Positions 21,229 to 36,759 of a DNA stretch of 36,838 nt are shown here, in pieces. Both the position numbers and the translations under genes were made by a program. This stretch comes from a virus, in IMG/VR virus record IMGVR_UViG_3300023112_000047, positions 1-36,838 of that record, one strand, 5' to 3'. Each line of letters opens with the position of its first letter. The stretch's first letter is position 1. The notes under the pieces are model-generated. The model saw only the letters and a list, made by a program, of their open reading frames with translations, did not search any database and was not told the origin of the DNA.

Positions 21229-22194
21229 ATGACACAGAGAGATTCGCAATCAAAAAATATAAACTCCTCAGATGGATTATTTAAGACATTAACCACCGAG
21301 GAGTTTATATTAAAGGCTATAGAAGTCCATGGCAACACATTCGATTATTCGAGGGTTGTGTATGAAAAAAGTAAACAAAAAGTGGAAATAGTATGCCCTC
21401 TTCATGGGGCATTTTTACAAATACCTAATTCTCATTTAATGGGTCGGGGCTGTAAAAAATGTTCGAGGCATAGAGCTTCTATAAAAAATACAATTTCTTT
21501 TGATGAATTTGAAGAGAAAGCTTTACACACTCATGGAGATTATTATGTATATGATAGAGATTCATACACAGGAACATCAGATCATATAGTAATAACATGT
21601 CCTGTGCATGGGGAATTTATGCAGAAAGGAATTGAACATATTCGGGGCAAGGGGTGTTATATATGTGGACAAGAAAAGAGATTTAAATCGAAGACTAAGG
21701 ATACTAATTGGTTTCTAGAAAAGGCAAAATGTGTTCATGGCGATTTATATGAGTACAATCAAGTAGACTATAAAAAAATTAAAGAAAAGGTTAAAATAGA
21801 ATGCACAAAACATGGAGAATTTGCACAAACCCCTCAATTACACTTAAATGGTGGAGGTTGCCCTAAGTGTAGATCTTCTAAAGGGGAGAAAAAAATCAGA
21901 AATTATTTTAATGAATGTGGTATGATATTTGAAGAACAAAAAACTTTTGATGGTTGTATAGATAAAAGATCTCTAAAATTTGATTTCTTCATCAATAATA
22001 AATTGATAGAATTTCAAGGAATTCAACATTATATATCAATAGATCATTTTGGCGGCGAAGATGCTTTATTGGGTAGGCAGAAAAAAGATCAAATTAAGAG
22101 AGATTTTTGTGAGGAAAATAACATACCTCTTTTGGAGATAAGATATGATGATAAAAACTGGAAAAGAAAAATGCAAAAATTTCTCAAGATATAG
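21229..22194 (+). CDS. Free-standing PD-(D/E)XK homing endonuclease
   Basis: A 321-residue relative of the protein at 5110. Three treble-clef-like repeats have CPLHG/CPVHG/CTKHG (about 56, 122, 186) and closing GC-x-x-C pairs. The C-terminal nuclease domain (about 220-321) has SLKFDFFINNKLIEFQGIQHY and a DQIKRDFCEENNIPLLEIRY helix-strand. These are metal-binding DNA-recognition modules and a VSR-like nuclease. It interrupts the NAD+ module between the NAMPT and HAD genes. A C-terminal fragment of a relative lies immediately downstream at 22271-22351. Confidence 0.8.
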   Translation: MTQRDSQSKNINSSDGLFKTLTTEEFILKAIEVHGNTFDYSRVVYEKSKQKVEIVCPLHGAFLQIPNSHLMGRGCKKCSRHRASIKNTISFDEFEEKALHTHGDYYVYDRDSYTGTSDHIVITCPVHGEFMQKGIEHIRGKGCYICGQEKRFKSKTKDTNWFLEKAKCVHGDLYEYNQVDYKKIKEKVKIECTKHGEFAQTPQLHLNGGGCPKCRSSKGEKKIRNYFNECGMIFEEQKTFDGCIDKRSLKFDFFINNKLIEFQGIQHYISIDHFGGEDALLGRQKKDQIKRDFCEENNIPLLEIRYDDKNWKRKMQKFLKI

Positions 22195-22235
22195 ATATTC
22201 GAAAAAAAAAACTCGAAATAGAGCAAAAAAAGACG

Positions 22236-22263
22236 TTGACAAGGGGGTTATTCTTGGTAGAGT
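22236..22263 (+). promoter_or_regulatory. Possible sigma70-like promoter before the HAD gene
   Basis: TTGACA (22236-22241), 16 nt, TAGAGT (22258-22263). A hairpin of 8 bp (22243-22250 with 22263-22270) overlaps it, which makes the call weak. The predicted start lies about 35 nt before the ATG at 22305. Confidence 0.35.
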
Positions 22264-22270
22264 AGCCCCC

Positions 22271-22351
22271 GACAACAACTTTAAATTACTAGAAATAAAA
22301 TATAATGGTGAACAATGGAGAGAAAAAATTAGAGAATTCTTGTACGAATAG
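22271..22351 (+). pseudogene. C-terminal remnant of a homing endonuclease
   Basis: The frame that ends at 22351 encodes DNNFKLLEIKYNGEQWREKIREFLYE. It resembles the end of the intact endonuclease upstream (ENNIPLLEIRYDDKNWKRKMQKFLKI) at about 11 of 25 positions. No matching N-terminus is present in this frame. It overlaps the beginning of the HAD reading frame in another frame. Confidence 0.6.
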
Positions 22352-22793
22352 ATATGTTAAGTTATTCGAGAATGCATTTGAAATAGCGGAAGAGAGAAAT
22401 TTTGATAAGATTTATGTGGTAGTCGATGTACATAATACCATCCTCCTACCTAATTATGATGGTATAGCCAATGAGTATTATCCTCTAGCCCCAACAGTGT
22501 TACAACACCTCTCTAAGAGAGAAGATGTAGTTCTCATTATGTGGACATGTTCAACTAAAGAAGATAGAGAGATATACAATGAATTCTTTAAGAAGGATGG
22601 TATTCACTTTGACTACATTAACGAAAATCCAGAAGTAGCAGGTAAAGTGCAATGGGGCGACTTTGATACAAAGATGTATGCCAATGTCATATTGGATGAT
22701 AAAGCTGGATTCTTTCCAGAAACAGATTGGCACGACCTATTAAACTATTTTGCGTGTAAATGTCTTGAAGAAGAGGAACCCCCAAAATTATAA
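22305..22793 (+). CDS. HAD-superfamily phosphatase-like protein
   Basis: A 162-residue reading frame. VVVDVHNTIL (about 38-47) is a HAD motif I in which the second Asp is replaced (DxHxT), VLIMWTCS supplies motif II, and ANVILDDKAGFF (about 132-143) is motif IV, so it is probably a small 5'-nucleotidase-like phosphatase or an inactive relative. The N-terminal 20 residues are read from sequence that in another frame encodes the end of a homing endonuclease, so the true start is uncertain. The ATG at 22354 right after the remnant's stop would be natural but is one base out of frame. Either a frameshift or a new start has arisen here. Confidence 0.6.
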   Translation: MVNNGEKKLENSCTNRYVKLFENAFEIAEERNFDKIYVVVDVHNTILLPNYDGIANEYYPLAPTVLQHLSKREDVVLIMWTCSTKEDREIYNEFFKKDGIHFDYINENPEVAGKVQWGDFDTKMYANVILDDKAGFFPETDWHDLLNYFACKCLEEEEPPKL

Positions 22794-26426: not shown

Positions 26427-27068
26427 ATGCAATTAATAGAAGAAAATATTATGAGTGAATATAAAGTAAAGTATAATAGACATGAATATAGAACAGAATA
26501 TCTTAGAAGTGATGAATGGAAAGCCTTAAGAAATCAGGTAATGAATTTACATTGTGTTTGTGAATGTTGTGGAGATAAAGCTACAGATGTGCATCATATG
26601 GTATATAGAAATTTAGTGGATATTAAGGTGACGGATTTACTGCCAGTGTGTAGAGAATGTCATAACCTTATACATAAGGCGATAGACGATAAATATATTC
26701 CAAAAGATGGAGACGTTGATCTGATAAAGACCATAACAAAAGGTATATTGGATGACGAAGTATATAAAGAATATGCTTCTTGGCTGAGAACTAAACATCA
26801 TATTCCAAACAATCTTATAAATAGAATTAAAAATTCACAGATATTTGTAATGAAGAAAATATCTGGATTCACCAAAAGTAACATTTGGTATAAAGATTTA
26901 GAAAATATAAAGTTGACAGGTCGCCAACAAGAGCGTATAATTCGTGAATGTGAGTCGTCTGAATATAGAAGAAAAAATAAAATTGGGGACAAGGGTGGTA
27001 AAAATTTACATATAATTGATAATAGAAATAATAGAGGACTCTTTCAACATAGAAAGGGTTATAAATAA
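26427..27068 (+). CDS. HNH endonuclease abutting tRNA-Pro
   Basis: A 213-residue protein. The HNH core shows CECC (45-48), VHHMVY (55-60) and VCRECHNLIH (74-83), the metal-binding and catalytic residues. The C-terminal half is basic and may bind DNA. An AAGGAG lies 6 nt before the ATG at 26427, one of the rare clear Shine-Dalgarno sites here; an internal ATG at 26451 is an alternative start. The stop codon ends at 27068, directly before the first base of tRNA-Pro. Confidence 0.8.
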   Translation: MQLIEENIMSEYKVKYNRHEYRTEYLRSDEWKALRNQVMNLHCVCECCGDKATDVHHMVYRNLVDIKVTDLLPVCRECHNLIHKAIDDKYIPKDGDVDLIKTITKGILDDEVYKEYASWLRTKHHIPNNLINRIKNSQIFVMKKISGFTKSNIWYKDLENIKLTGRQQERIIRECESSEYRRKNKIGDKGGKNLHIIDNRNNRGLFQHRKGYK

Positions 27069-27142
27069 CGGAGGTGTGGTGTAATGGTAACACGTGGGCT
27101 TTGGGAGCTTGAGATGCAGTTCGAATCTGACATCACCGACCA
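27069..27142 (+). tRNA. tRNA-Pro(TGG)
   Basis: Acceptor stem CGGAGGT/ATCACCG with one A-A mismatch, discriminator A, encoded CCA. Anticodon loop TTTGGGA gives TGG. The C1-G72 pair is typical for proline. It starts immediately after the stop codon of an HNH gene. Confidence 0.8.
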
Positions 27143-27167
27143 ATATAATGAATGGACAATCCTTGAG

Positions 27168-27226
27168 GGTGCGTTTAAAAATCTAACCATTCCTCTTATA
27201 CATACATGGCGATGTATAAACGCACC
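27168..27226 (+). other. Extended stem-loop between tRNA genes
   Basis: GGTGCGTTTA (27168-27177) pairs perfectly with TAAACGCACC (27217-27226). An inner hairpin ATACAT/ATGTAT with loop GGCG lies at 27202-27217. At 59 nt it is too short for a tRNA and lacks a T-loop. Purpose unknown. Confidence 0.6.
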
Positions 27227-27229
27227 AAT

Positions 27230-27304
27230 TGGAAGTTAACTGAGATGGATTAGTGGCAGTCTGAAAAATTGCATAGATGGGATCGTTACCCATACTTCCA
27301 ACCA
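27230..27304 (+). tRNA. tRNA-Phe(GAA)
   Basis: Acceptor TGGAAGT/ACTTCCA, A73, CCA encoded. Anticodon loop CTGAAAA gives GAA; T-arm ATGGG/CCCAT. The T loop is ATCGTTA rather than TTCGANY. Confidence 0.8.
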
Positions 27305-27309
27305 ACAAA

Positions 27310-27383
27310 GTTTATATAGTTCAATGGTAGAACACTAGCTTGGTATGTTAGGTACGAGAGTTCGATTCTCTCTATAAACTCCA
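27310..27383 (+). tRNA. tRNA-Thr(GGT)
   Basis: Acceptor GTTTATA/TATAAAC, T73, CCA encoded. Anticodon loop TTGGTAT gives GGT; T-arm GAGAG/CTCTC with TTCGATT. Confidence 0.85.
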
Positions 27384-27385
27384 AT

Positions 27386-27406
27386 ACATGAAGATGTATA
27401 AACTTA
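27386..27406 (+). repeat. Inter-tRNA hairpin repeat, copy 1
   Basis: This 21-nt sequence recurs exactly at 36760-36780, more than 9 kb away. It contains ACAT-GAAG-ATGT, a small hairpin that extends to six pairs here. It lies between tRNA-Thr(GGT) and tRNA-His. Confidence 0.8.
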
Positions 27407-27409
27407 AAT

Positions 27410-27484
27410 GTTGATCGTAGCATAGTGGTAGTGCCCAAATTTGTGAAATTTGTCTGCGCGGGTTCGAATCCCGTCGATCACCCA
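27410..27484 (+). tRNA. tRNA-His(GTG)
   Basis: Anticodon loop TTGTGAA gives GTG. The acceptor can pair GTTGATCG (from an extra 5' G) with CGATCACC, matching the G-1:C73 feature of histidine tRNAs, with one T-C mismatch. T-arm GCGGG/CCCGT with TTCGAAT. The 3' end reads CCCA, so the CCA is compressed against C73. Confidence 0.8.
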
Positions 27485-27503
27485 ATTTAGACAAAGTTTC
27501 TCG

Positions 27504-27531
27504 TTGACAATCTGAGCCTATCCGCTAGGGT
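27504..27531 (+). promoter_or_regulatory. Possible sigma70-like promoter
   Basis: TTGACA (27504-27509), 16 nt, TAGGGT (27526-27531), ending 6 nt before the ATG at 27538. The -10 is a poor match. Confidence 0.35.
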
Positions 27532-27537
27532 AAGCCC

Positions 27538-27972
27538 ATGACCAACACAGAGATATACGTTGTAAGCTGTATAGCACTAACACATGTGATTGTATCAGTA
27601 TGTTTTCACTTAAATGTTAGGAAAGATTTTGAGAAACCTTTATCTCATTACGATATATATAGGCAAGGTGAAGCAGTGTTTATGTGCTACTTTCCATTAG
27701 TAAACATATTAATGTTTATTGCTGGATGGAATGATAAACGTATTAATGCAATGCTTAAACGCAATAACATAGAACACACCGAAAACCAAAAACTCGAAAA
27801 GATCAATGAGAAGCTTCTTGTATATTTGGAAGATCCTGACTTTGATCCAATGAAGTATAACAAACTCAAAGAACAGATTATTAACGATCTTTCCAAAAAT
27901 GAAAAACAAACAATACCTCAATTACCAGACAATAATAAGTATATGGATAAACTTTTCAGTTATGACAGCTAA
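27538..27972 (+). CDS. Small membrane protein of unknown function
   Basis: A 144-residue protein with hydrophobic segments at about 6-24 and 47-64 and a charged, helical C-terminal half (KLEKINEKLLVYLEDPDFDPMKYNKLKEQI). It lies between tRNA-His and tRNA-Ala. No family is recognised. Confidence 0.6.
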   Translation: MTNTEIYVVSCIALTHVIVSVCFHLNVRKDFEKPLSHYDIYRQGEAVFMCYFPLVNILMFIAGWNDKRINAMLKRNNIEHTENQKLEKINEKLLVYLEDPDFDPMKYNKLKEQIINDLSKNEKQTIPQLPDNNKYMDKLFSYDS

Positions 27973-27981
27973 AAATATATA

Positions 27982-28061
27982 GGGGTGTGTGGCAACATGG
28001 GTGTTGCACTTGATTTGCAATCAAGTTAAAATATAGGGGTCAGTACCCTCACACTCCACCA
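27982..28061 (+). tRNA. tRNA-Ala(TGC)
   Basis: Acceptor GGGGTGT/ACACTCC (one G-U), A73, CCA encoded. Anticodon loop TTTGCAA gives TGC within CTTGA/TCAAG. It is about 80 nt long because of a variable region near 8 nt, and the T loop (GTCAGTA) is atypical. Confidence 0.75.
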
Positions 28062-28092
28062 ATTAAACAATTAAACAATTAAACAATTAAAC
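28061..28092 (+). repeat. Tandem octamer repeat (AATTAAAC)x4
   Basis: Four perfect copies of AATTAAAC begin at the last base of tRNA-Ala and end 2 nt before the ATG at 28095. They form the whole untranslated leader of the next gene. Confidence 0.95.
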
Positions 28093-28094
28093 AA

Positions 28095-28520
28095 ATGAGA
28101 AAACCAACTGAACCAAGAAATTCAAAAGTAACACGTTATAACAAGCATGACACAGACTTTGACCATCAAACAATATCAATGAAAGATATTATAGAGTTAG
28201 CCGATGCCCTGTCTGTTGAATATGACATTGACATGGAAGATATTTCATTCGGTCTAGACAATGAAGATTGTTATGATGTAGGAGATCAACCTACCATATA
28301 TGCATGTGGTGAAGCAGATCGATATACTGAAGATGAAATGGCTGGGTTTATGCGAGTGTATAAAATTCAATTAGAAACATATGAAAAATATCTATCTGAT
28401 AATAGATCATATCTTGAGAATGTAGCTATACAGAAAGAAAAGAATTCAAAAAGGCGTAAAGAGCTTAGAAACAGCATTTCCAAACTGGAAAATGAGCTAA
28501 ATTGCTTAAAAGGCAAATAA
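28095..28520 (+). CDS. Unknown protein with C-terminal coiled coil
   Basis: A 141-residue acidic protein. The first part has ISMKDIIELADALSVEYDIDMEDISFGLDNE; the last 45 residues form a Lys/Glu-rich coiled coil (RRKELRNSISKLENELNCLKGK). Its leader is the octamer repeat. No family is recognised. A promoter cassette begins right after its stop codon. Confidence 0.6.
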   Translation: MRKPTEPRNSKVTRYNKHDTDFDHQTISMKDIIELADALSVEYDIDMEDISFGLDNEDCYDVGDQPTIYACGEADRYTEDEMAGFMRVYKIQLETYEKYLSDNRSYLENVAIQKEKNSKRRKELRNSISKLENELNCLKGK

Positions 28521-28534
28521 AAGCCCGAAAGAGC

Positions 28535-28564
28535 TTGACCAAGACCCCGATTTGGTGCTAAGAT
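28535..28564 (+). promoter_or_regulatory. Sigma70-like promoter cassette, copy 1
   Basis: TTGACC (28535-28540), 18 nt, TAAGAT (28559-28564), preceded by GCCCGAAAGAGC. The same block occurs at 29931, 31863 and 32567. Confidence 0.75.
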
Positions 28565-28587
28565 CGCTCAACGCAAACAACCAACCA

Positions 28588-28767
28588 ATGAATCAACAAC
28601 CACCAAATACAATAACAGAGTTCATACTGATGATATGGCTTCTATCAATAATGATATTAGGCTTACATAAAGTAGACTTCACAGGTCGAGATCTAGTCTT
28701 ATGGATATTCTTTGCTCCATTCGTAGCAGCATATGTATTGGTAAAGTGGATAGTTACTAACTGGTAA
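28588..28767 (+). CDS. Small membrane protein of unknown function
   Basis: A 59-residue protein with two hydrophobic segments (about 10-27 and 36-55). The ATG at 28588 lies 24 nt after the -10 box and follows a CA-rich leader without a Shine-Dalgarno site. A hairpin GTCGGAG/CTCCGAC lies 13 nt after the stop (28781-28809). Confidence 0.6.
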   Translation: MNQQPPNTITEFILMIWLLSIMILGLHKVDFTGRDLVLWIFFAPFVAAYVLVKWIVTNW

Positions 28768-28819
28768 ACAATTTACCCTAGTCGGAGAGGGTGTTAAGCA
28801 TACTCCGACACAACATAAA

Positions 28820-28895
28820 TCTAGTGTAGCTCAATTGGTAGAGCATTCGACTGTTACTCGAAGGGTTGGAGGATCGTACCCTCCCACTAGAGCCA
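28820..28895 (+). tRNA. tRNA-Asn(GTT)
   Basis: Acceptor TCTAGTG/CACTAGA perfect, G73, CCA encoded. Anticodon loop CTGTTAC gives GTT in TTCGA/TCGAA; D-arm GCTC/GAGC. Confidence 0.92.
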
Positions 28896-28916
28896 AGATA
28901 ATAAAATAATAAAATA

Positions 28917-29339
28917 ATGAAATTCTTCAAAGGATATAGTGTAGTAGGTGATTCAGAATATAGTGCCGAAATAATCATCAACAACCTAAAAACTGGTATT
29001 AATAAAAGGGGCGAATTAGTGTTGCATTTTGACACAATCAACCACAAATATTTAGCGGTTGACAAAAATGGCTCCACTTCCGAAAGAGTAACGGAATGGA
29101 AAGGTGAGGGCAAGGCTCCAATGTCTACAATACTTAGATTTGTTCATGAGCCATATGAATCTGATGGTGGGTGGGATGTTCTAGAAATTAGGATGGAAGC
29201 AGAAACAGACGAAGAAGCAAAACAAATTCATATTTTCACGAACTTATGTATCATACCCCACAAATGGGAATATACAGTAGTGTTTGTAGATGAAGCAGAA
29301 GCGAGTGATGCAACACTAACACCAATAGAAATCATTTAA
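28917..29339 (+). CDS. Unknown protein
   Basis: A 140-residue protein, mostly predicted beta strand (EIIINNLKTGINKRGELVLHFDTINHKYLAVDKNG), preceded by an ATAAAATAATAAAATA leader. No family is recognised. The next start is 1 nt past its stop. Confidence 0.6.
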   Translation: MKFFKGYSVVGDSEYSAEIIINNLKTGINKRGELVLHFDTINHKYLAVDKNGSTSERVTEWKGEGKAPMSTILRFVHEPYESDGGWDVLEIRMEAETDEEAKQIHIFTNLCIIPHKWEYTVVFVDEAEASDATLTPIEII

Positions 29340-29340
29340 A

Positions 29341-29901
29341 ATGAAAAGATTAGCAAAAGTCAGATTCAACTTATCGAGAGGTAAGAACTATATGAAATGG
29401 AAAGTAGTTTATCCTAGCGGTGCAGTTAGGTATTACGATCCTAGCCTGTATACAGTGACTATGACTAATTGCTTTCTTAGGAATCAACCAACAACAGCAT
29501 TGAAGATCTTCGTAGGAGGGCATAAGAAAGTATGTGCATGGGTTGAATGTGAGAGTGTAAAGGTGGAAGCTGTTAAAGAGCCAAAGTTTAGAACCCCTCT
29601 TAAATTTAAGAAACGTGATGTTAAGAATCTCAAAGAGGGGTTTCCCACAATACATATGCCTCAATGTCGCAAATATTTAGAATTCAACCCAAGAACTAAA
29701 CCTTATTGGTTCGCAGTGTGGGATGAAGACCATTCAATTGATGCTTCCACATATGAAACATTGGAAACTATAGGAACGAAAATATTCTATAAAGAGAATA
29801 TGAAATTTCCAGAATTAAGACCTGCTGAAATATGTGGTGTACAGCCAATGAATCTTCCTGTCGGAAGGGGTTATCAAATTCCAACATATCATATATCTTA
29901 A
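29341..29901 (+). CDS. Unknown basic protein
   Basis: A 186-residue protein rich in Lys, Tyr and Pro, starting 1 nt after the previous stop. It has a YPSGAVRYYDPS segment (about 24-35) and a C-terminal segment with conserved-looking Pro and Tyr residues. No known domain is recognised; a two-gene operon with 28917 is likely. Confidence 0.6.
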   Translation: MKRLAKVRFNLSRGKNYMKWKVVYPSGAVRYYDPSLYTVTMTNCFLRNQPTTALKIFVGGHKKVCAWVECESVKVEAVKEPKFRTPLKFKKRDVKNLKEGFPTIHMPQCRKYLEFNPRTKPYWFAVWDEDHSIDASTYETLETIGTKIFYKENMKFPELRPAEICGVQPMNLPVGRGYQIPTYHIS

Positions 29902-29930
29902 AAGAAATCGAAGAAAAAGCCCGAAAGAGC

Positions 29931-29960
29931 TTGACCAAACCCCGAAAGGTGTGCTAGACT
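29931..29960 (+). promoter_or_regulatory. Sigma70-like promoter cassette, copy 2
   Basis: TTGACC (29931-29936), 18 nt, TAGACT (29955-29960), preceded by GAAGAAAAAGCCCGAAAGAG. Confidence 0.75.
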
Positions 29961-29988
29961 AGCCCCAGCAACAACAACCAACAAATAA

Positions 29989-30198
29989 ATGAAAACATTC
30001 AATCACCATTTTGACCAAGCAACGGCTCACGACAGAGAGATTTTTAATAAATTCTGTAAAACCTCTGAATACTTTGATCCAACTAGCTTGTTAGATATAA
30101 TTATTGAGTCTTACATGGATGACCAAGACATCGAAGGATTGACGAATTACCTCCAAGAAATCATTAATAGTAACAGCACAACAAATGAAAATCAGTAA
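29989..30198 (+). CDS. Small acidic protein of unknown function
   Basis: A 69-residue helical protein (LLDIIIESYMDDQDIEGLTNYLQEIINS) with an Asn/Thr-rich end, 29 nt after promoter copy 2 and after a CA-rich leader. It overlaps the next small gene by 14 nt. Confidence 0.6.
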   Translation: MKTFNHHFDQATAHDREIFNKFCKTSEYFDPTSLLDIIIESYMDDQDIEGLTNYLQEIINSNSTTNENQ

Positions 30199-30361
30199 CA
30201 AATACTTCGGAACACTACTAGCTCTCGTAGCGATATTTACATATATCAATACAGCACTAATCGTATCACGAAACAACAATCCAAATGCTTCGGCATACCA
30301 ATCACTTACTAACTATAAGTCAGTAGGTACATTTCAAACATTTAAACTAGAAGATAAATAA
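30185..30361 (+). CDS. Small signal-anchored protein of unknown function
   Basis: A 58-residue frame not explained by any other gene. The N-terminus MKISNKYFGTLLALVAIFTY then INTALIV forms a signal peptide or TM anchor, and the rest (Asn, Ser, Tyr, Thr-rich) would lie outside the membrane. It overlaps the upstream gene by 14 nt, ends one base before the next ATG, and so fits an operon. Confidence 0.55.
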   Translation: MKISNKYFGTLLALVAIFTYINTALIVSRNNNPNASAYQSLTNYKSVGTFQTFKLEDK

Positions 30362-30362
30362 T

Positions 30363-30647
30363 ATGCCATGTTCAGACTCACGATGCCAAGATGATTATTA
30401 TTCAAACTATCAACAAGAGCAATCAAAAAATACAGTATTAGAGGCAATGCTTTGTGCATTACTCACTGAGATTACAAATGATCCTAATATTGATCAAAGT
30501 ATACTCATTGAAAATGCAGAGGCTAATGGACAAATTGCAATTTCTCCATTCTGGTATAAACATAGGCAAGAAGATGACAGGCGCATCAAGAAGATGGTAG
30601 ATAAACTATCTGCCCATGAATTAGAAGTATTAAAGAAACTATTATAA
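30363..30647 (+). CDS. Small phage protein with MPCSDS-type N-terminus
   Basis: A 94-residue protein beginning MPCSDSRCQDDYY, a start seen in small phage proteins, followed by a helical domain (NTVLEAMLCALLTEI and RRIKKMVDKLSAHELEVLKKLL). A metal-binding Cys pair near the N-terminus is possible. Function is unknown. It is the third gene of an operon from promoter copy 2. Confidence 0.65.
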   Translation: MPCSDSRCQDDYYSNYQQEQSKNTVLEAMLCALLTEITNDPNIDQSILIENAEANGQIAISPFWYKHRQEDDRRIKKMVDKLSAHELEVLKKLL

Positions 30648-30653
30648 ACAAAA

Positions 30654-30729
30654 GGTTTGGTAGATCAATTGGTAGATCACATGATTGTCAATCATGAGGT
30701 TGCGGGATCATACCCCGTCCAGACCGCCA
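30654..30729 (+). tRNA. tRNA-Asp(GTC)
   Basis: Acceptor GGTTTGG/CCAGACC (one G-U), G73, CCA encoded. Anticodon loop TTGTCAA gives GTC in CATGA/TCATG; T-arm around CGGGATCATACCCCG. Confidence 0.9.
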
Positions 30730-30806
30730 TAAAGATACATACAGCAATTATTAAAATTATTATTGGAAATAAACAACGTATCTTGTACAACTAACACAAA
30801 CAAACA

Positions 30807-31037
30807 ATGTTAACAAAACTAAAATATTATAAATTATTCAGGCGGTTTGATGACTTCGTTATCATTCCATGTACGAACAAAATGGGAACCTATCCTGTCT
30901 TTGTAAGACTGTATGGAATTAGAAATGGTGTATATTATCTTGTTCGACAAGCAGTATCACCCCCCAATGAATGGGAAGACTCACTAGGTGCTGAATATGC
31001 CCTAAATGGTGGATATCCAGAGTTTGATAATCTATAA
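30807..31037 (+). CDS. Small protein of unknown function
   Basis: A 76-residue beta-rich protein (FDDFVIIPCTNKMGTYPVFVRLYGIRNGVYYLVRQAV). The 5' region holds a long-loop inverted repeat (AAGATAC at 30732, GTATCTT at 30778). No family is recognised. Confidence 0.55.
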   Translation: MLTKLKYYKLFRRFDDFVIIPCTNKMGTYPVFVRLYGIRNGVYYLVRQAVSPPNEWEDSLGAEYALNGGYPEFDNL

Positions 31038-31088
31038 TTTTAATCGGTTTTTAAATAGAGGGTTATCTTAAAAGTAGGGTAGTCATAC

Positions 31089-31096
31089 ACTAAATA
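31089..31096 (+). promoter_or_regulatory. Late promoter octamer ACTAAATA for an HNH gene
   Basis: It lies 5 nt before the ATG at 31102. Confidence 0.65.
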
Positions 31097-31101
31097 TAGG
31101 T

Positions 31102-31755
31102 ATGATACCAAATAGGGATGAACTAACTAATGCCAAATATAGAGATTATATAGATATCAATTGTGACCATTGCGGGATTTCATTTGAGAGAATGAAGAGA
31201 TCTATCATGACTGGTGGCGACACACACTATTGCACAAGTCAATGTTTTGCCAACTATAAAAGTATGTTGGCGAAAGAATCTAAAAAGGATATCTTCGAAA
31301 AATCATGCTCTATGTGTGGAGAAATAAAATCATTAGAATCCTTCAATAAGAATAAGACAAAACCAGATGGGTATAACACAATGTGCAGAGTGTGTAGTAA
31401 TATCAGATCTAGACAATACTATAAAGAGAACCCAATAGAACATAAGATAGCGGTACAAGAGAGAAATAAAAGGGTTAGGATGGAGAACATGCGTTCAATA
31501 TTTAACTACTATTTAGATAACCCTTGTATAGATTGCGGAGAAGCAAATCCAGTCATATTAGATTCAGATCATAGAGATGTAGATACAAAATTTAAAAATA
31601 TATCAGAGATGGTCGGAGAATCATATAGTTGGAAACGAATTATAGAAGAGTTGAATAAATGCGAAACAAGATGCGCCAACTGTCATAGAAAACGAACAGC
31701 AAAACAATTTAACTGGTACAAAGGTATGCCAGATATAGAAAAATATCTTAAATAA
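31102..31755 (+). CDS. HNH endonuclease abutting tRNA-Lys
   Basis: A 217-residue protein with three cysteine modules: an N-terminal CDHC...YCTSQC finger (about 21-44), a second ribbon CSMC...MCRVC (about 70-99), and the HNH core CIDCGEANPVILDSDH followed by RCANCHRKR (about 146-198). The Asp-His at the end of the first strand is the catalytic site. It is expressed from its own late octamer and ends 1 nt before tRNA-Lys, just as 26427 ends next to tRNA-Pro. Confidence 0.85.
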   Translation: MIPNRDELTNAKYRDYIDINCDHCGISFERMKRSIMTGGDTHYCTSQCFANYKSMLAKESKKDIFEKSCSMCGEIKSLESFNKNKTKPDGYNTMCRVCSNIRSRQYYKENPIEHKIAVQERNKRVRMENMRSIFNYYLDNPCIDCGEANPVILDSDHRDVDTKFKNISEMVGESYSWKRIIEELNKCETRCANCHRKRTAKQFNWYKGMPDIEKYLK

Positions 31756-31756
31756 T

Positions 31757-31832
31757 GTGAATGTAGCTTAGTGGGTAGAGCAGCAAACTTTTAATTTGAC
31801 GGTCATGGATTCGACTTCCATCATTCACACCA
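31757..31832 (+). tRNA. tRNA-Lys(TTT)
   Basis: Acceptor GTGAATG/CATTCAC perfect, A73, CCA encoded. Anticodon loop CTTTTAA gives TTT. Starts 1 nt after an HNH stop codon. Confidence 0.9.
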
Positions 31833-31862
31833 ATTTATTTCGAAGAAAAAGCCCGAAAGAGC

Positions 31863-31892
31863 TTGACCAAGAGCAACAAATCGTGCTAAGAT
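31863..31892 (+). promoter_or_regulatory. Sigma70-like promoter cassette, copy 3
   Basis: TTGACC (31863-31868), 18 nt, TAAGAT (31887-31892), preceded by GAAGAAAAAGCCCGAAAGAG. It drives the gene at 31915. Confidence 0.75.
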
Positions 31893-31914
31893 CTGCCGCA
31901 TCAACCAACAACAA

Positions 31915-32625
31915 ATGATAATAAACCATAAACCAACGACAGTTCTTATACTTACTCATAGAGACAATATAACTAATGAATTAGTTGTACCTCATTTAGA
32001 GTGGTTGGAATTTTATAATCCCGATGTACGAGTAGAGATCATCTCAGATGTTGATGATTCTATTTCAAGGGATGAAGCATGGCGGAATGGAGATAGGAAA
32101 CTTCGTAATTGGTGGAAGGTTCATGGACAGAGTATTGATAGTGACACTATCGCAATCTTTGAATGGGACACACTAATGAAAGGAGAATTACCATCACTAC
32201 CATATGGTTTAGACCTTGCAGGAAAATGGGTTTATAAAATGGGACAACATTGGAACTGGTGGTCAGAAGCTAGTAGAATGGAATGTGACCCAATTGGTTT
32301 AGTTTCATTTGGAGCATTCTTCGTGAAGAGATGGGTATTAGATGCAATATCTCAAGACAAGTGGAATGAAACATTCGATAAAGACATTATTAATGAATTG
32401 AGATTTCCAAGTGTGGCAAAGGCAGAAGGTGCTATTATTGGTATAATGGATCTTCCGTTTGTTGATTGGAAAGAGGTTAAATTGGGCGATGAAATGGGAT
32501 TATACCACGGAATCAAGCAACCTCACCAAATACCAAATAAAAAGGAAGAAAAAGACCCGAAAGAGCTTGACCAAGACCCCCAAATCGTGCTAGGATCTGC
32601 CAACGCAAACAAGCAAAGCAAATGA
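31915..32625 (+). CDS. Unknown protein, possibly glycosyltransferase-like, with a promoter-encoded tail
   Basis: A 236-residue protein. The start (TTVLILTHRDNITNELVVPHLEWLEFYNPDVRVEIISD) and IAIFEWDTLM (about 79-88, a possible DxD-like EWD site) recall GT-A proteins, but no family is certain. Residues from about 209 on (KKEEKDPKELDQDPQIVLG...) are translated from promoter cassette copy 4 rather than from a conserved gene, so the native C-terminus has probably been replaced. The stop overlaps the next ATG by one base step (ATGA). Confidence 0.55.
   Translation: MIINHKPTTVLILTHRDNITNELVVPHLEWLEFYNPDVRVEIISDVDDSISRDEAWRNGDRKLRNWWKVHGQSIDSDTIAIFEWDTLMKGELPSLPYGLDLAGKWVYKMGQHWNWWSEASRMECDPIGLVSFGAFFVKRWVLDAISQDKWNETFDKDIINELRFPSVAKAEGAIIGIMDLPFVDWKEVKLGDEMGLYHGIKQPHQIPNKKEEKDPKELDQDPQIVLGSANANKQSK
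32567..32596 (+). promoter_or_regulatory. Sigma70-like promoter cassette, copy 4, inside a coding region
   Basis: TTGACC (32567-32572), 18 nt, TAGGAT (32591-32596), preceded by GACCCGAAAGAGC. It lies within the 3' end of the preceding gene and drives the gene at 32622. Confidence 0.75.
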
Positions 32626-32849
32626 AACTAACTAAAGAGCAAAAATTCAAAGTCCTACAGAAAATGAGCGGAAACGCTCTCACTGAACACATTCCTGATG
32701 ATTGGCGTGATATGTCAGAAGAAGATCAAGATGAATTTCTTTCGGATCATGAGTGGGTAGCATTTGAAGGATGGAGTGCTAATGATGTAATGAGTCATAT
32801 TAATGGCATGGCAGATGATGCAATTCAACTAATAGAGAGTAACCTATAA
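32622..32849 (+). CDS. Small acidic protein of unknown function
   Basis: A 75-residue protein. It has a basic N-terminal helix (KLTKEQKFKVLQKM) and an acidic remainder with LSDHEWVAFEGWSANDVMSHINGMADDAIQL. It begins 26 nt after the -10 of promoter copy 4. No family is recognised. Confidence 0.6.
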   Translation: MKLTKEQKFKVLQKMSGNALTEHIPDDWRDMSEEDQDEFLSDHEWVAFEGWSANDVMSHINGMADDAIQLIESNL

Positions 32850-32852
32850 AAA

Positions 32853-32951
32853 ATGAGTGAGCAAACCATAACAATACTGTGCTTCGTCGCAGGATGTATA
32901 GTAGGTAAACTATTATGTCTTGGAGTGTCAGCTCTATGGAAAAAATGGTAG
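32853..32951 (+). CDS. Small transmembrane protein
   Basis: A 32-residue frame starting 3 nt after the previous stop: one hydrophobic segment (about 6-28, ITILCFVAGCIVGKLLCLGV) and a basic WKKW end. Co-directional with 32622 and overlapping the following frame (ATGGTAG). Small-TM peptides are frequent in such regions; translation is inferred. Confidence 0.5.
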   Translation: MSEQTITILCFVAGCIVGKLLCLGVSALWKKW

Positions 32952-33055
32952 TAATTGACCGAATCCCCTTGACTAAGGTGGGAAAATACTATAATGTCAG
33001 TGACAACGCAGTAAGAAAGCGTTGTATTAAATTAGGTATAGATTACAAAAAATAA
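32945..33055 (+). CDS. Stand-alone HTH remnant of an HNH endonuclease
   Basis: A 36-residue frame ending in NVSDNAVRKRCIKLGIDYKK. It aligns without gaps to the last 36 residues or so of the HNH endonuclease at 35820 (GVSDNAVRKRCVKYGIDPKK), with 23 identical positions. It is thus the helix-turn-helix tail of a relative whose nuclease part is missing. It ends 7 nt before tRNA-Glu, while the intact relative ends 8 nt before tRNA-Gly. It may be a decayed gene or a small DNA-binding protein. Confidence 0.65.
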   Translation: MVVIDRIPLTKVGKYYNVSDNAVRKRCIKLGIDYKK

Positions 33056-33062
33056 AATAAAT

Positions 33063-33138
33063 GTTCCTATAGATTATATGGTTAAATCAAGCGACTTTCA
33101 CTCGCTAGAAATGGATTCGAGTTCCATTGGGAATACCA
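33063..33138 (+). tRNA. tRNA-Glu(TTC)
   Basis: Acceptor GTTCCTA/TGGGAAT (two G-U), A73, CCA encoded. Anticodon loop CTTTCAC gives TTC in AGCGA/TCGCT. A small hairpin ATACC/GGTAT at 33133-33148 covers its 3' end. Confidence 0.88.
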
Positions 33139-33508
33139 AGCTCGGTATACAAAACAAATACAGTATGTCGAGAGAACGCATTCTACAAATCAACAAAAAG
33201 ATGCCTGTGATTAGATTACATAGAACAAAAACAATCTAGATGAATATAGAGGATTAATTATTCAGAACCTGTCAAGCGCAACTTGACATACGTTCAACCA
33301 ATACATTCATCGAAACTAAACAAAGATAGTTCGGAACGCTTCTTCTTAGCGCGAACCAGTTCGGACAATGAAGCTATGTTACAAATCCGCAAAAGACATA
33401 GCAAGTGATTGTAGTATCATGAAGGGGGCGTGTGGATAACGTCACAAACTACATAGTTAATAGTCAGTGAGGTGTCAGTACAATACTCACTGACTATTAA
33501 CATCAAAT
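33139..33508 (+). ncRNA. 370-nt non-coding stretch with several hairpins
   Basis: No convincing reading frame is present between tRNA-Glu and tRNA-Val. It contains hairpins TGTCAAG-CGCAA-CTTGACA (33270-33288), GTTCG..CGCT/AGCG..GAAC (33329-33356), GCTATGT/ACATAGC (33373-33402) and the perfect 16-bp hairpin 33456-33501. This suggests a structured RNA, but identity is unknown. Confidence 0.35.
33456..33501 (+). repeat. Perfect 16-bp inverted repeat upstream of tRNA-Val
   Basis: GTTAATAGTCAGTGAG pairs with CTCACTGACTATTAAC around a 14-nt loop, with no T-run after it, ending 7 nt before tRNA-Val. It may be a processing site. Confidence 0.85.
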
Positions 33509-33583
33509 GCAAGATTAGCTCAATGGTAGAGCAATTGGTTTACACTCAATAGGTCGCAGAATCGGTATCTGCATCTTGTACCA
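33509..33583 (+). tRNA. tRNA-Val(TAC)
   Basis: Acceptor GCAAGAT/ATCTTGT (one G-U), A73, CCA encoded. Anticodon loop TTTACAC gives TAC in ATTGG/TCAAT; the T-arm is degenerate (ATCGGTA loop). Confidence 0.85.
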
Positions 33584-33625
33584 ATACCATATATTCACCG
33601 CTATACCATCACGAATATATGTATG

Positions 33626-33665
33626 GGACACTATCCGTTAAGACTAAGCGGTAAGGATAGTGTCC
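33626..33665 (+). repeat. Perfect 11-bp inverted repeat between tRNA-Val and a small gene
   Basis: GGACACTATCC (33626-33636) pairs with GGATAGTGTCC (33655-33665); the loop has further pairing (CCGTTA with TAAGCGG). No T-run follows. Confidence 0.85.
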
Positions 33666-33683
33666 ATGATGAATTAAAAAATT

Positions 33684-33857
33684 ATGGAAGAAAATAACGT
33701 ATTACTTACATTTGATAATCCAATTCTTAAAGAACAGTTTATTGATTGGCTCCTTGATGGTGGCGATGATGCATTCAACAATCATCAAGAATGTTTAGAT
33801 CAACCATGTGTACATATGGATCATACATCAGATAATCTACGAATTAGTAGTGAATAA
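33684..33857 (+). CDS. Small acidic protein of unknown function
   Basis: A 57-residue frame between tRNA-Val and tRNA-Ile, rich in Asp and with DQPCVHMDHTSDNL near the end, which could hold a metal. No Shine-Dalgarno site is seen; the leader is A-rich. Translation is plausible, as the frame fills the space between two RNA genes. Confidence 0.5.
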   Translation: MEENNVLLTFDNPILKEQFIDWLLDGGDDAFNNHQECLDQPCVHMDHTSDNLRISSE

Positions 33858-33868
33858 TAAAATAAAAT

Positions 33869-33943
33869 ACATGTGTAGCTCAGAGGCAGAGCAGACGACC
33901 GATAATTGTCAGGACGGGATCTCGGAATTCCCCACATGTACCA
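33869..33943 (+). tRNA. tRNA-Ile(GAT) with C33
   Basis: Acceptor ACATGTG/CACATGT perfect, A73, CCA encoded. Anticodon loop CCGATAA gives GAT, with C instead of the near-universal T at position 33. The T loop (CTCGGAA) is also atypical, so the gene may be decaying. Confidence 0.75.
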
Positions 33944-34054
33944 ACATCCTTAGTTGATCGACAAGGAGAAAACATAGTTGCTACCGATGATGGCATTATT
34001 AATCAAAATGAGGTAAAAGTCCTAAATCGTCTCCAATTTAAACAATAATAAAAA

Positions 34055-34140
34055 GCTGATGTGGTGGAACGGAATACACTGGATGTTTAAGCCATCCCAC
34101 TCTTCGGAGTATGCAGGTTCAAATCCTGTCATCAGTACCA
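34055..34140 (+). tRNA. tRNA-Leu(TAA)
   Basis: Acceptor GCTGATG/CATCAGT (one G-U), A73, CCA encoded. Class II with a long variable arm (ACTCTTCGGAGT). Anticodon loop TTTAAGC gives TAA in GGATG/CATCC. Confidence 0.92.
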
Positions 34141-34365
34141 ATTAATAATTCTCTATAGGATTAATTACCTTATAGTTGAATGAGTATACATGGGTTCGAT
34201 TCCTTCAACTCTGGTGAGTATGTATAGTTAACTAGGGTGTACTGAGTAGCGAAACTTCTCTAAATAGATTATTAGGCTCACTCACCCGAAAACACTTTTT
34301 AGTTCTTGTGCTATATATCAATCATAAGACGTTGTTGTTATTTTAACGAAAGGTAAATATCAAAT
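34141..34365 (+). other. 225-nt intergenic stretch with a tRNA-arm-like remnant
   Basis: No convincing gene is seen between the two tRNA-Leu genes. At 34176-34212, GTTGAA...GGGTTCGATTCC...TTCAAC resembles an acceptor stem joined to a T-arm, with no D or anticodon arm. An octamer-like TCTAAATA near 34258 has no ATG after it. Confidence 0.4.
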
Positions 34366-34442
34366 GCATCTGTAGCCCAATTGGTAGAGGCGTTGGATTT
34401 AGGCTCCAAATGTTGTAGGTTCGACTCCTATCAGATGTACCA
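34366..34442 (+). tRNA. tRNA with Leu anticodon TAG on a class I body
   Basis: Acceptor GCATCTG/CAGATGT, A73, CCA encoded; T-arm GTAGG-TTCGACT-CCTAT. Anticodon loop TTTAGGC in TTGGA/TCCAA gives TAG, which reads CTA (Leu). At 77 nt it has only a 5-nt variable loop, unlike bacterial leucine tRNAs. Confidence 0.8.
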
Positions 34443-34466
34443 ACTTAAAAATAAAATATTAATAAA

Positions 34467-34772
34467 ATGCAATCATATAACGGAATGAAGATTGGTGACT
34501 TAATCACTACATGTCATAAGGGATTCTTCATCTTAAATGAAATTGAAGAAAGAGAACCTTATACAACATTTGGATCAACCAAACTACACACACCCAACCC
34601 GCTATTTAGATATAGTCGAGTAGGTGATGATAAAGGTAGACCATGTGGAGGGCAACCTAAGTCATGTGATGCATCTTATTGTAATCTTGCCACAGACTCA
34701 ATTGAAACCATGATCAAAGATCATATGAATACAGTCAAACAAATGAAGGCACTAGTTAAAACACACACTTAA
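34467..34772 (+). CDS. Unknown protein
   Basis: A 101-residue protein with an N-terminal beta segment (MKIGDLITTCHKGFFILNEIEER) and a Cys-containing middle (RPCGGQPKSCDASYCNLA, about 59-76) that may bind metal. The end is helical. No family is recognised. The next gene starts 1 nt after its stop. Confidence 0.6.
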   Translation: MQSYNGMKIGDLITTCHKGFFILNEIEEREPYTTFGSTKLHTPNPLFRYSRVGDDKGRPCGGQPKSCDASYCNLATDSIETMIKDHMNTVKQMKALVKTHT

Positions 34773-34773
34773 C

Positions 34774-35070
34774 ATGACTCAAAAAACATTAGAACAATTC
34801 GTACTTCTTACAGAAGCGCAAGAGAAACAACATTTTGTATGTACTGCATATATTGATACTATTCATTCGATGATTAAGCGTAGAGCTTCTTATAATGGAT
34901 TAAAGGATTGGGAAGAACGCATGTTACAAGCCTCTTATGAAGCTGTTGATTATCCATTGGATGATCGTTTAACACATGGTAAATTTAAGTTGGAGAGAGC
35001 TGTAGAAGCAATACCAAAGAACACAGGAAAAAAGCTGACTCCTATGGAGATTGAAGCACTAGAAGATTAA
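34774..35070 (+). CDS. Unknown protein
   Basis: A 98-residue mostly helical protein (QFVLLTEAQEKQHFVCTAYIDTIHSMIKRRASYNGLKDWEERMLQASYEAVDYPLDD). It sits in an operon with neighbours: 1-nt gap upstream and a TAATG overlap downstream. No family is recognised. Confidence 0.6.
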   Translation: MTQKTLEQFVLLTEAQEKQHFVCTAYIDTIHSMIKRRASYNGLKDWEERMLQASYEAVDYPLDDRLTHGKFKLERAVEAIPKNTGKKLTPMEIEALED

Positions 35071-35456
35071 TGGAAGAATTTAGTATAGAAGATACTGCAA
35101 TGACCTATGATGAATGGAAGCAAGCTAGTTTTTATGTCCGTAAGGGCGCAAAATCAAGGTTTCGTGATCCACTAGGCGTTGCTGTCTTCTGTATTGACCA
35201 AGTTATAGCTTACGATGCAGAAAAGATTCAGTTTATCAAAGATGAACTTGACAGAATCCCCCAATCAGAGTATGATCTCTATATCGGTAAGAAGGAATTG
35301 GTTTTCCCGACTATCAACACAGCGACAACGACAAGAAGAAGTAACAATTATCTCCTAACCAACATTGAACACCATTTCGTGGATGCAACTAACAAAGCTT
35401 TCATCCATACAATAGGTGATCAATACGAAGAAGATTACGACGAAAGAGAATTTTAA
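35070..35456 (+). CDS. Unknown protein
   Basis: A 128-residue protein whose ATG overlaps the previous stop. It has a mixed helical core (MTYDEWKQASFYVRKGAKSRFRDPLGVAVFCIDQVIAYDAEK) and an acidic C-terminus. Function unknown. Confidence 0.6.
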   Translation: MEEFSIEDTAMTYDEWKQASFYVRKGAKSRFRDPLGVAVFCIDQVIAYDAEKIQFIKDELDRIPQSEYDLYIGKKELVFPTINTATTTRRSNNYLLTNIEHHFVDATNKAFIHTIGDQYEEDYDEREF

Positions 35457-35460
35457 TATA

Positions 35461-35679
35461 ATGAAACAGAAATATAATTATTTAATAGTATATAGATTCG
35501 GAGATAGTTTTACTCCTGTAATAGATAATCATGTTGGTAGAGGGGATTCACCTGATGAAGTTTGGGTATATGGCTATCCTAATAGTGATGATGAAGTAGA
35601 AATAAGTCAATGCCATGAACCAATCATCAAGGCGTTAGAGGATCATAGTACGAATGTAATAGTACATAGAATCAAATAA
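35461..35679 (+). CDS. Small protein of unknown function
   Basis: A 72-residue beta-rich protein (YNYLIVYRFGDSFTPVIDNHVGRGDSPDEVWVYGYP). The ATG at 35461 is chosen over in-frame upstream codons because it follows the previous stop by 4 nt. It ends 1 nt before tRNA-Arg. Confidence 0.6.
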   Translation: MKQKYNYLIVYRFGDSFTPVIDNHVGRGDSPDEVWVYGYPNSDDEVEISQCHEPIIKALEDHSTNVIVHRIK

Positions 35680-35680
35680 A

Positions 35681-35756
35681 GGGAATATAGTGAAGTTGGA
35701 TATCACGCTAGTCTACGAAACTAGAATTCGAGTTTCGATTACTCGTATTCCTACCA
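35681..35756 (+). tRNA. tRNA-Arg(ACG)
   Basis: Acceptor GGGAATA/TATTCCT (one G-U), A73, CCA encoded. Anticodon loop CTACGAA gives ACG in CTAGT/ACTAG; T-arm CGAGT/ACTCG. Reading of CGN codons needs A34 deamination by the host. Confidence 0.9.
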
Positions 35757-35806
35757 ATTAACAAACAAAATAAATGATATAAGTATTGTAAAATGGTTCG
35801 ACTCGA

Positions 35807-35814
35807 ACTAAATA
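35807..35814 (+). promoter_or_regulatory. Late promoter octamer ACTAAATA for an HNH gene
   Basis: It lies 5 nt before the ATG at 35820, which is preferred over the in-frame ATG at 35793. Confidence 0.65.
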
Positions 35815-35819
35815 CTTAT

Positions 35820-36554
35820 ATGAAACAGAGAACAAGTAAGATATGGACAGTAAGTAATGAAGAACTACAAACCCTATTCAATGAATCATCTACTAGGGTA
35901 GAGATATTAGAGAAGCTGGGGTTTGATGGGTATAATGGAAATCATAGAACATTGAAGCTGCGTGTTGATGAAGGTGAAATAGACTTAACTCAATTTGATG
36001 AAAATTATATGAAGTTTATGGGTAGAAAGTTGGGTAAGGTGAATAAAAGACCAGATTTAGAGGTATTTTGTATAAATTCGACATACACATCAAATAAAGA
36101 CATAAAGAAGAGGTTGATCAAAGATCATGGGAGAGAATGTATTTGTGTTGGATGTGGTGTTGGAGACACCTATAACGATATTCCCATATCACTACAGTTG
36201 GATCATATTAATGGAATTAATAATGATAATAGATTCGAAAATCTAAGATTCCTATGTCCCAACTGTCATTCACAAACATCTACATTTAGTGGTAAGCGAC
36301 ATAAGATTGATTATACTTGTATATCTTGCGGCAACTCTAAGAAGACTAAACTTAGTGAGAGATGTGATAAATGTTCTGATAAACAAAAAGGATTAGATAA
36401 TAGAAAATTCAATCCAACGAAAGAAGAATTATATGAAATGGTGTGTGTAGATAAAACACCATTTACAAAATTAGGAATATTATTCGGAGTATCAGACAAT
36501 GCAGTTCGAAAGAGATGTGTTAAGTATGGTATTGATCCTAAGAAAAGAGAATAA
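35820..36554 (+). CDS. HNH endonuclease with C-terminal helix-turn-helix
   Basis: A 244-residue protein. Its HNH core reads CICVGCGVGDTYNDIPISLQLDH (the catalytic DH), then INGINNDNRFENLRFLCPNCH (about 100-145), and a zinc ribbon CISCGNSKKTKLSERCDKC follows (about 160-178). The end (about 195-240) is a helix-turn-helix with FTKLGILFGVSDNAVRKRCVKYGI, also found alone at 32945. It is driven by a late octamer and ends 8 nt before tRNA-Gly. Confidence 0.85.
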   Translation: MKQRTSKIWTVSNEELQTLFNESSTRVEILEKLGFDGYNGNHRTLKLRVDEGEIDLTQFDENYMKFMGRKLGKVNKRPDLEVFCINSTYTSNKDIKKRLIKDHGRECICVGCGVGDTYNDIPISLQLDHINGINNDNRFENLRFLCPNCHSQTSTFSGKRHKIDYTCISCGNSKKTKLSERCDKCSDKQKGLDNRKFNPTKEELYEMVCVDKTPFTKLGILFGVSDNAVRKRCVKYGIDPKKRE

Positions 36555-36562
36555 TACGAAAT

Positions 36563-36640
36563 GCAAGTGAGAGTCATTAGGCAGACTATCAGATTTCCAA
36601 TCTGACTATCGTGTGGGTTCGAATCCCATCACTTGCTCCA
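36563..36640 (+). tRNA. tRNA-Gly(TCC)
   Basis: Acceptor GCAAGTG/CACTTGC perfect, T73 as usual for glycine, CCA encoded. Anticodon loop TTTCCAA gives TCC in TCAGA/TCTGA. Confidence 0.9.
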
Positions 36641-36642
36641 AT

Positions 36643-36755
36643 ATAACAACATACGTCTCGGATAGAAATAAGACATACTAGGAAGTCTTAAAGTATTATG
36701 GTAGAGCGGGGGATATAATTCCTTGGCTGTAGGTTCAAGTCCTACTGTTGTTATG
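36643..36755 (+). other. tRNA-like element of 113 nt
   Basis: A 9-bp terminal stem (ATAACAACA with TGTTGTTAT) encloses a D-arm-like TATGGTAGAGC, a stem-loop around GGGGGATATAATTCC and a proper T-arm GTAGG-TTCAAGT-CCTAC. It is about 35 nt longer than a tRNA and has no encoded CCA. It may be an interrupted or decayed tRNA; no anticodon can be named. Confidence 0.4.
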
Positions 36756-36759
36756 TATA

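Follow-up and report, generated by a model that had tools for sequence, protein, structure and literature searches.

HNH endonuclease genes abutting the 5′ ends of tRNA genes in phage tRNA arrays: probable free-standing homing cassettes, some carrying a same-anticodon tRNA

The virus record IMGVR_UViG_3300023112_000047, analyzed over its full length of 36,838 base pairs (bp) and hereafter called the window, represents a T4-like tailed phage, the sheath protein of which matches T4-like sheaths. From 27 kilobases (kb) onward, it carries an array of transfer RNA (tRNA) genes with interspersed small genes; 11 tRNAs in the window are detected by ARAGORN, and four further tRNAs are detected by Rfam at 33509, 33869, 36692 (weak), and 36787 (cut by the window end). 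Three HNH endonuclease genes, referred to as HNH1, HNH2, and HNH3, end 0, 1, and 8 nucleotides (nt), respectively, before a tRNA gene, and a decayed HNH3-type gene ends 7 nt before another (Table 1), as had been claimed in the original prediction, which was made from the letters of the window alone. The decayed gene had been described there as a remnant of a helix-turn-helix (HTH) region, and its open reading frame (ORF) indeed matches the C-terminus of HNH3 (59% over 39 amino acids (aa), E 3.6e-11). All three intact genes are assigned to HNH families in PHROGs, and the PF01844 match of HNH3 lies above the Pfam cut-off. Because three different HNH families are involved, the common position at a tRNA edge is not simply inherited from one insertion. 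Furthermore, the three genes are stand-alone ORFs outside any intron or intein; a search of the window with E values up to 1 returned no group I intron match, and no intron family matched the related loci L013, L018, and L249.

Table 1. Features of the tRNA array in the window (positions are those of the whole 36,838-bp stretch).
Feature	Position	Strand	Remarks
HNH1	26427..27068	+	213-aa HNH endonuclease gene, phrog_144-like, DUF968-like; stop 0 nt before tRNA-Pro
Sigma-70-like promoter match	26913..26941	+	TTGACA-17-TATAAT, 12/12; lies within HNH1, about 130 nt upstream of tRNA-Pro; a match to the consensus alone, such matches being as numerous in shuffles as in the region
tRNA-Pro(tgg)	27069..27142	+	HNH1 partner
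Non-HNH counter-example	30363..30647	+	6 nt before tRNA-Asp at 30654
HNH2	31102..31755	+	217 aa, endonuclease VII-like HNH, phrog_2255; 1 nt before tRNA-Lys
tRNA-Lys(ttt)	31757..31832	+	HNH2 partner
Decayed HNH3-type gene	32915..33055	+	C-terminal HTH codons only (match from 32936); 7 nt before tRNA-Glu
tRNA-Glu(ttc)	33063..33138	+	Adjoins the HNH3-type remnant
Non-HNH counter-example	33684..33857	+	11 nt before tRNA at 33869
Non-HNH counter-example	35461..35679	+	Start ATG 35461 or GTG 35416; 1 nt before tRNA-Arg at 35681
Strong hairpin	35775..35822	+	Covers HNH3 start region; z −3.3, 0/200 shuffles as stable
HNH3	35793..36554	+	Start ATG 35793 or 35820; PF01844 HNH domain and C-terminal HTH, phrog_10822; 8 nt before tRNA-Gly
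tRNA-Gly(tcc)	36563..36640	+	HNH3 partner

The same arrangement was surveyed in distant relatives by scanning HNH2- and HNH3-family profiles against viral contigs, with 80 loci for each, and a gene was scored as tight when its end lay at −20 to +15 of a same-strand tRNA start. All other ORFs at the surveyed loci served as controls; about 20% of them are further nucleases, which makes the HNH excess conservative, and the rates are relative rather than absolute because the loci were picked by similarity to tRNA-adjacent HNHs and the ORF calls were crude. A tight position was scored for 67 of 200 HNH genes versus 141 of 2291 other ORFs (odds ratio 7.7, P 4e-27); HNH genes are associated with tRNA 5′ ends beyond chance across many phages. 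The distances from the HNH stop to the next tRNA are sharply concentrated between −15 and +13 nt with a peak at −10, those on the upstream side are broad, and the conserved NCH motif ends just 12–57 nt before the tRNA in 47 of 77 cases.

Allelic sites in other phages show HNH genes arriving with a tRNA of the resident anticodon. At site K1 of Klebsiella Mydovirus, KP12 and K18PH07C1 carry an insert of ~490 bp inside the resident tRNA-Arg(tct), consisting of an HNH gene and a complete tRNA-Arg(tct), and Iguana_ER37, KB57, and further records with about 99.5% identity have this resident tRNA-Arg(tct) uninterrupted. Rfam recognizes the resident tRNA only in the empty allele (L247, 34.9 bits) and the inserted tRNA only in the filled one (L013, 59.8 bits). 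As the empty allele comprises one whole tRNA and the filled allele the same tRNA in two pieces, the insertion is the derived state. A similar architecture appears in the uncultured contig L018, where hand-checked base pairing suggests a tRNA-Lys(ttt) split around an HNH gene and another tRNA-Lys(ttt). In other cases, the resident tRNA is replaced: a tRNA-Asp(gtc) by an HNH gene and a different tRNA-Asp(gtc) at site F3 (51/78 identical), the second tRNA-Met(cat) of Streptomyces Gilsonvirus by an HNH gene and a different tRNA-Met(cat) at site S1 (43/75 identical), and, at site M1 of Bixzunavirus, HNH genes occur with divergent tRNAs between near-identical outer flanks (Pro 50/73, Trp 62/76, and Tyr 58/87 identical). 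The anticodons are unchanged in these exchanges. At site M2, two genes, HNH-a and HNH-b, each possess their own tRNA-Thr(ggt) (45/75 identical), and HNH-a has been lost in Essence except for its last ~60 nt, which lie directly before an identical tRNA-Thr, a fossil of the same kind as that at 32915–33055 of the window. Co-conversion patterns in the flanks are found at F3, S1, M1, and M2.

HNH genes have also been inserted alone. At site F1 (Felixounavirus and relatives), pSJ21 and EcSzw-2 carry an HNH insertion of ~471 bp, the right edge of which is nucleotide 1 of tRNA-Leu(tag), and the empty alleles of LTH02, ph2-2, and OPT-SAL01 share the flanks and the tRNA (76/77 identical); in this comparison, only 10 of 278 matching records had a query coverage of at least 80%. 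A 9-bp repeat, GATTTAATG, flanks the insert and provides the stop codon of the HNH gene as well as base 1 of the tRNA; co-conversion of flanking sequence is absent. In PHB11 and FO1a, a gene of a second HNH family likewise occupies the spacer of 6 nt that separates tRNA-Gly from tRNA-Thr. The HNH gene at the Leu and Thr sites moved without the tRNA, which stayed essentially unchanged. The proposal that HNH–tRNA pairs spread or insert as units is supported at K1, F3, S1, M1, and M2 but does not cover these two Felixounavirus sites. Presence/absence polymorphism is found in relatives at F1, the Thr site, K1, S1, M1, and M2.

We consider it probable, at roughly 0.68, that the HNH genes are free-standing homing endonuclease cassettes with a tRNA 5′ end as their right edge. 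In co-infecting phages without the cassette, the HNH protein would most likely cleave the tRNA gene itself or the junction on its 5′ side, and repair from cassette-bearing genomes would copy the HNH gene with the adjoining tRNA, which would thus be preferentially inherited. The carried tRNA has a different sequence and the same anticodon, as would be expected of an uncuttable rescue allele; it would probably resist cleavage and maintain tRNA function, in a natural form of cut-and-rescue. At other sites, the HNH gene is cleanly inserted 5′ of the tRNA, and since RNase P removes any leader 5′ of a tRNA, such an insertion is probably harmless. Later decay of the HNH gene by deletion leaves a 3′ fossil and the tRNA, as at 32915–33138. 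The three pairs of the window may have originated by such homing. An extended form of the proposal is offered tentatively, at somewhat less than even odds: cut-and-rescue cassettes, in which an HNH that destroys the tRNA gene of competitors is fused to an uncuttable same-anticodon tRNA, often borrows its stop codon from that tRNA, and has its translation compete with tRNA maturation on each transcript, would be a main engine of tRNA turnover in the arrays.

Several observations weigh against the homing-cassette reading. The Leu and Thr sites show no tRNA recoding. Tightness to a tRNA is missing in about two-thirds of the HNH relatives surveyed, so that the survey of relatives envisaged in the original prediction established a real association and also showed that most distant relatives depart from it. 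Isotype is weakly conserved along the HNH trees (nearest tree neighbors share the isotype in 7 of 29 and 11 of 36 cases in the two families, P about 0.02 each), and the 5′ position is therefore more constant than tRNA identity. No empty allele for the window pairs was found in close-relative scans of viral contigs with HNH1–3, in which the sole near relative is identical over 10.3 kb and HNH3 retrieved no close relative; HNH1 gave no phage match by tblastn. When resident tRNAs in two pieces were sought systematically with masking, the yield was no higher than in the control (the unmasked attempt returned noise), implying that the K1 architecture may be uncommon, and the idea that split resident tRNAs are common was dropped. 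Finally, an HNH gene in FO1a (Felix O1 gp44; L184 529–973) lies on the 3′ side of a swapped tRNA-Arg(tct), a tRNA with a long variable region having taken the place of the short tRNA-Arg(tct) of its relatives. As a separate observation, the resident tRNA-Arg of Klebsiella K1 is of the same long type as that of FO1a, as if two types of tRNA-Arg displace each other.

The identity of the neighboring tRNA varies among HNH relatives. The close HNH2 relatives L017, L018, L019, and L026 also abut tRNA-Lys(ttt), L017 and L018 being the nearest, and the HNH3 tree neighbor L098 also abuts tRNA-Gly(tcc). A rule of one isotype per HNH clade was nevertheless abandoned because the signal is weak and L147 and L159, which are 76% identical, abut different tRNAs. 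In L032 (5249) and L044 (5323 onward), contigs that are collinear and 83% identical over 4.3 kb, one orthologous HNH-adjacent tRNA has the anticodon CAT versus CGT. Flanking tRNAs of the same anticodon are in excess (5/56 versus 10/350, P 0.04); their interpretation as recent duplicates was rejected for same-isotype flanking tRNAs, the identity of which is about 0.4–0.7.

The stop codons bear on an explanation through gene expression, according to which RNase P or tRNA folding sets the 3′ end of the HNH messenger RNA (mRNA) or limits its translation, and selection on expression rather than the mechanics of insertion fixes the position. Among surveyed genes with a tRNA within 300 nt, the stop lies inside the tRNA in 51 of 122 HNH genes versus 54 of 381 others (P 6e-10). 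In 52 of the 86 tight HNH genes, the reading frame runs into the tRNA before reaching a stop; 22 tight genes have their stop at −10, which in 18 of the 22 is a TAG provided by tRNA nucleotides 8–10 (U8-A9-G10). When the stop is inside the tRNA, the processed tRNA would leave a non-stop HNH mRNA, and the two products would be mutually exclusive for each transcript. This exclusion may hold nuclease levels down, by analogy with known phage homing endonucleases, which are down-regulated by hairpins and processing (PMC2988022). In the window, all stops of HNH1–3 precede the tRNA; the strong hairpin at the HNH3 start points to possible translational control, whereas that of HNH2 is weaker (z −1.6) and that of HNH1 is not significant (z 0.25), the latter counting against this explanation. 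The suggestion in the original prediction that RNase P forms the HNH mRNA 3′ end would apply to any tRNA-abutting gene and would remove the HNH stop in the 52 of 86 genes. Since, judging from the empty and filled alleles, insertion itself determines the position, and since the replacement of tRNAs by others of the same anticodon is left unexplained, we regard expression coupling as the origin of the position as unlikely, at perhaps one chance in four.

Ordinary compaction, in which any gene preceding a tRNA in a dense co-transcribed array would stop near it and HNH genes would just be frequent members of such arrays, appears more doubtful still. Within the window, three non-HNH genes end 1, 6, and 11 nt before tRNAs (Table 1) and a further one ends at 28767, 52 nt before the tRNA at 28820. 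The original count of three of three HNH genes is thus correct and weaker than it looks: little follows from the spacing by itself, which called for the broader survey. The objection that tRNA-adjacent genes of any kind might show the same spacing holds in part, and the statistical HNH excess and the paired alleles survive it. Within the window, by our own count, about 4 of 16 non-HNH genes versus 3 of 3 HNH genes lie within 15 nt of a tRNA (hypergeometric 35/969 = 0.036). Compaction explains part of the survey result, because the contrast shrinks to 55% of HNH genes versus 37% of other genes that are tight given a tRNA within 300 nt (P 7e-4), and 23 of 29 sampled non-HNH tRNA neighbors have no nuclease match. 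However, HNH genes remain tight more often and place their stop inside the tRNA far more often, other nuclease families in the same phages, taken as negative controls, rarely adjoin tRNAs (tight in 2 of 30 for phrog_144, one being HNH1 itself, and 1 of 29 for GIY-YIG), and the allelic pairs show insertion exactly at tRNA edges together with tRNA exchange; the HNH excess and the allelic pairs contradict compaction as the sole cause. The least probable alternative is that general homologous recombination between divergent phages carries HNH–tRNA blocks along as passengers, the HNH having no active part; such recombination could also produce the multi-tRNA block swapped between near-identical flanks at M1 but does not account for K1, F1, and the Thr site, where short insertions are precise in near-identical genomes and an HNH gene stands at the junction each time.

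Additional observations concern the remainder of the window. A recurring module of ~18 nt, AAGCCCGAAAGAGCTTGACC, with TAAGAT/TAGGAT-like sequence, is located at 28523–28566, 29918–29960, 31850–31894, and 32555–32598, preceding several array genes and once directly following tRNA-Lys; it looks like a repeated early promoter cassette. At 22271–22388, the window lacks about 230 bp relative to the otherwise identical contig IMGVR_UViG_3300023276_000008 (L245 8531–8879), retaining only the tail of a nuclease-like ORF (22145–22351) where the contig has a 92-aa ORF, and a DUF723/phrog_559 endonuclease gene (21229–22194) adjoins this tail; the difference is a second sign of homing-endonuclease turnover. 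Possible degenerate tRNAs, missed by ARAGORN and Rfam, are seen by eye at 27983–28060 (Ala-like) and 27230–27303 (Phe-like), and 27168–27228 forms a stem of tRNA size in which the ends match but a T-arm is missing. A tRNA-like element at 36653–36757 has 9-bp complementary ends (ATAACAACA/TGTTGTTAT), a T-arm, an enlarged middle, and a weak Rfam tRNA match (24.6 bits).

Why phages possess large and variable tRNA sets has been asked for a long time, and the usual answers are codon usage and the evasion of defences that cut tRNAs. If HNH homing cassettes account for the movement of many tRNAs, each as the protected half of its cassette, part of the phage tRNA repertoire would be a by-product of selfish endonucleases. 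Nucleases would then find at the 5′ edge of tRNAs a safe place to land, mirroring the use of the 3′ edge by integrases. The overlap of the stop codon with the tRNA would provide a simple model for keeping such a nuclease low.

Elements with an integrase target tRNA genes and restore them. They resemble the present cassettes in landing in a tRNA gene and keeping its function, and differ in relying on an integrase that acts at the tRNA 3′ end; in K1, the HNH ORF and a single tRNA take up the whole ~490-bp insert, which accommodates no integrase. The direct precedent is the intronless homing of SegB in phage T4 (Brok-Volchanskaya 2008; PMC13096335), a free-standing endonuclease gene within a phage tRNA array (PMC2988022). 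SegB of T4-like phages cuts inside tRNA genes with a preference for the motif RAWTSGAAC (PMC13096335), which in our reading corresponds to the T-arm of tRNAs in reverse complement, and drives the inheritance of the adjacent tRNA region, as established for SegB and proposed here for the HNHs. SegB is, however, an unrelated nuclease of the GIY-YIG type encoded between tRNA-Arg and tRNA-Ile; HNH1–3 all belong to HNH families, and in the cassettes described here the nuclease gene stops at the tRNA 5′ end or within it, each cassette having a replacement tRNA of the same anticodon. T4 SegF/SegG and other free-standing endonucleases (PMC2988022) likewise lie beside an allele of the target gene and spread by co-conversion, although their target is a protein gene, whereas K1 combines insertion inside the resident gene with a full spare copy. 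It is already known that HNH genes occur in phage tRNA arrays: in cluster M and other mycobacteriophages, they adjoin the arrays and have been implicated in changes of the tRNA repertoire (Pope 2014 as cited in PMC5966550 and PMC6409571), and the relevant passages of these two articles do not describe the exact 5′ junction, the stop-in-tRNA overlap, or empty and filled alleles. In the open-access papers searched, neither this precise 5′ junction nor the stop-in-tRNA class was found described, nor was an HNH gene with a same-anticodon tRNA inside a resident tRNA. A likeness in design is provided by synthetic cleave-and-rescue and home-and-rescue drives (e.g., PMC7968924), which also pair a nuclease with a recoded rescue copy of its target gene; those drives are engineered in animals, whereas the phage arrangement is natural and its cleavage step is one that we infer.

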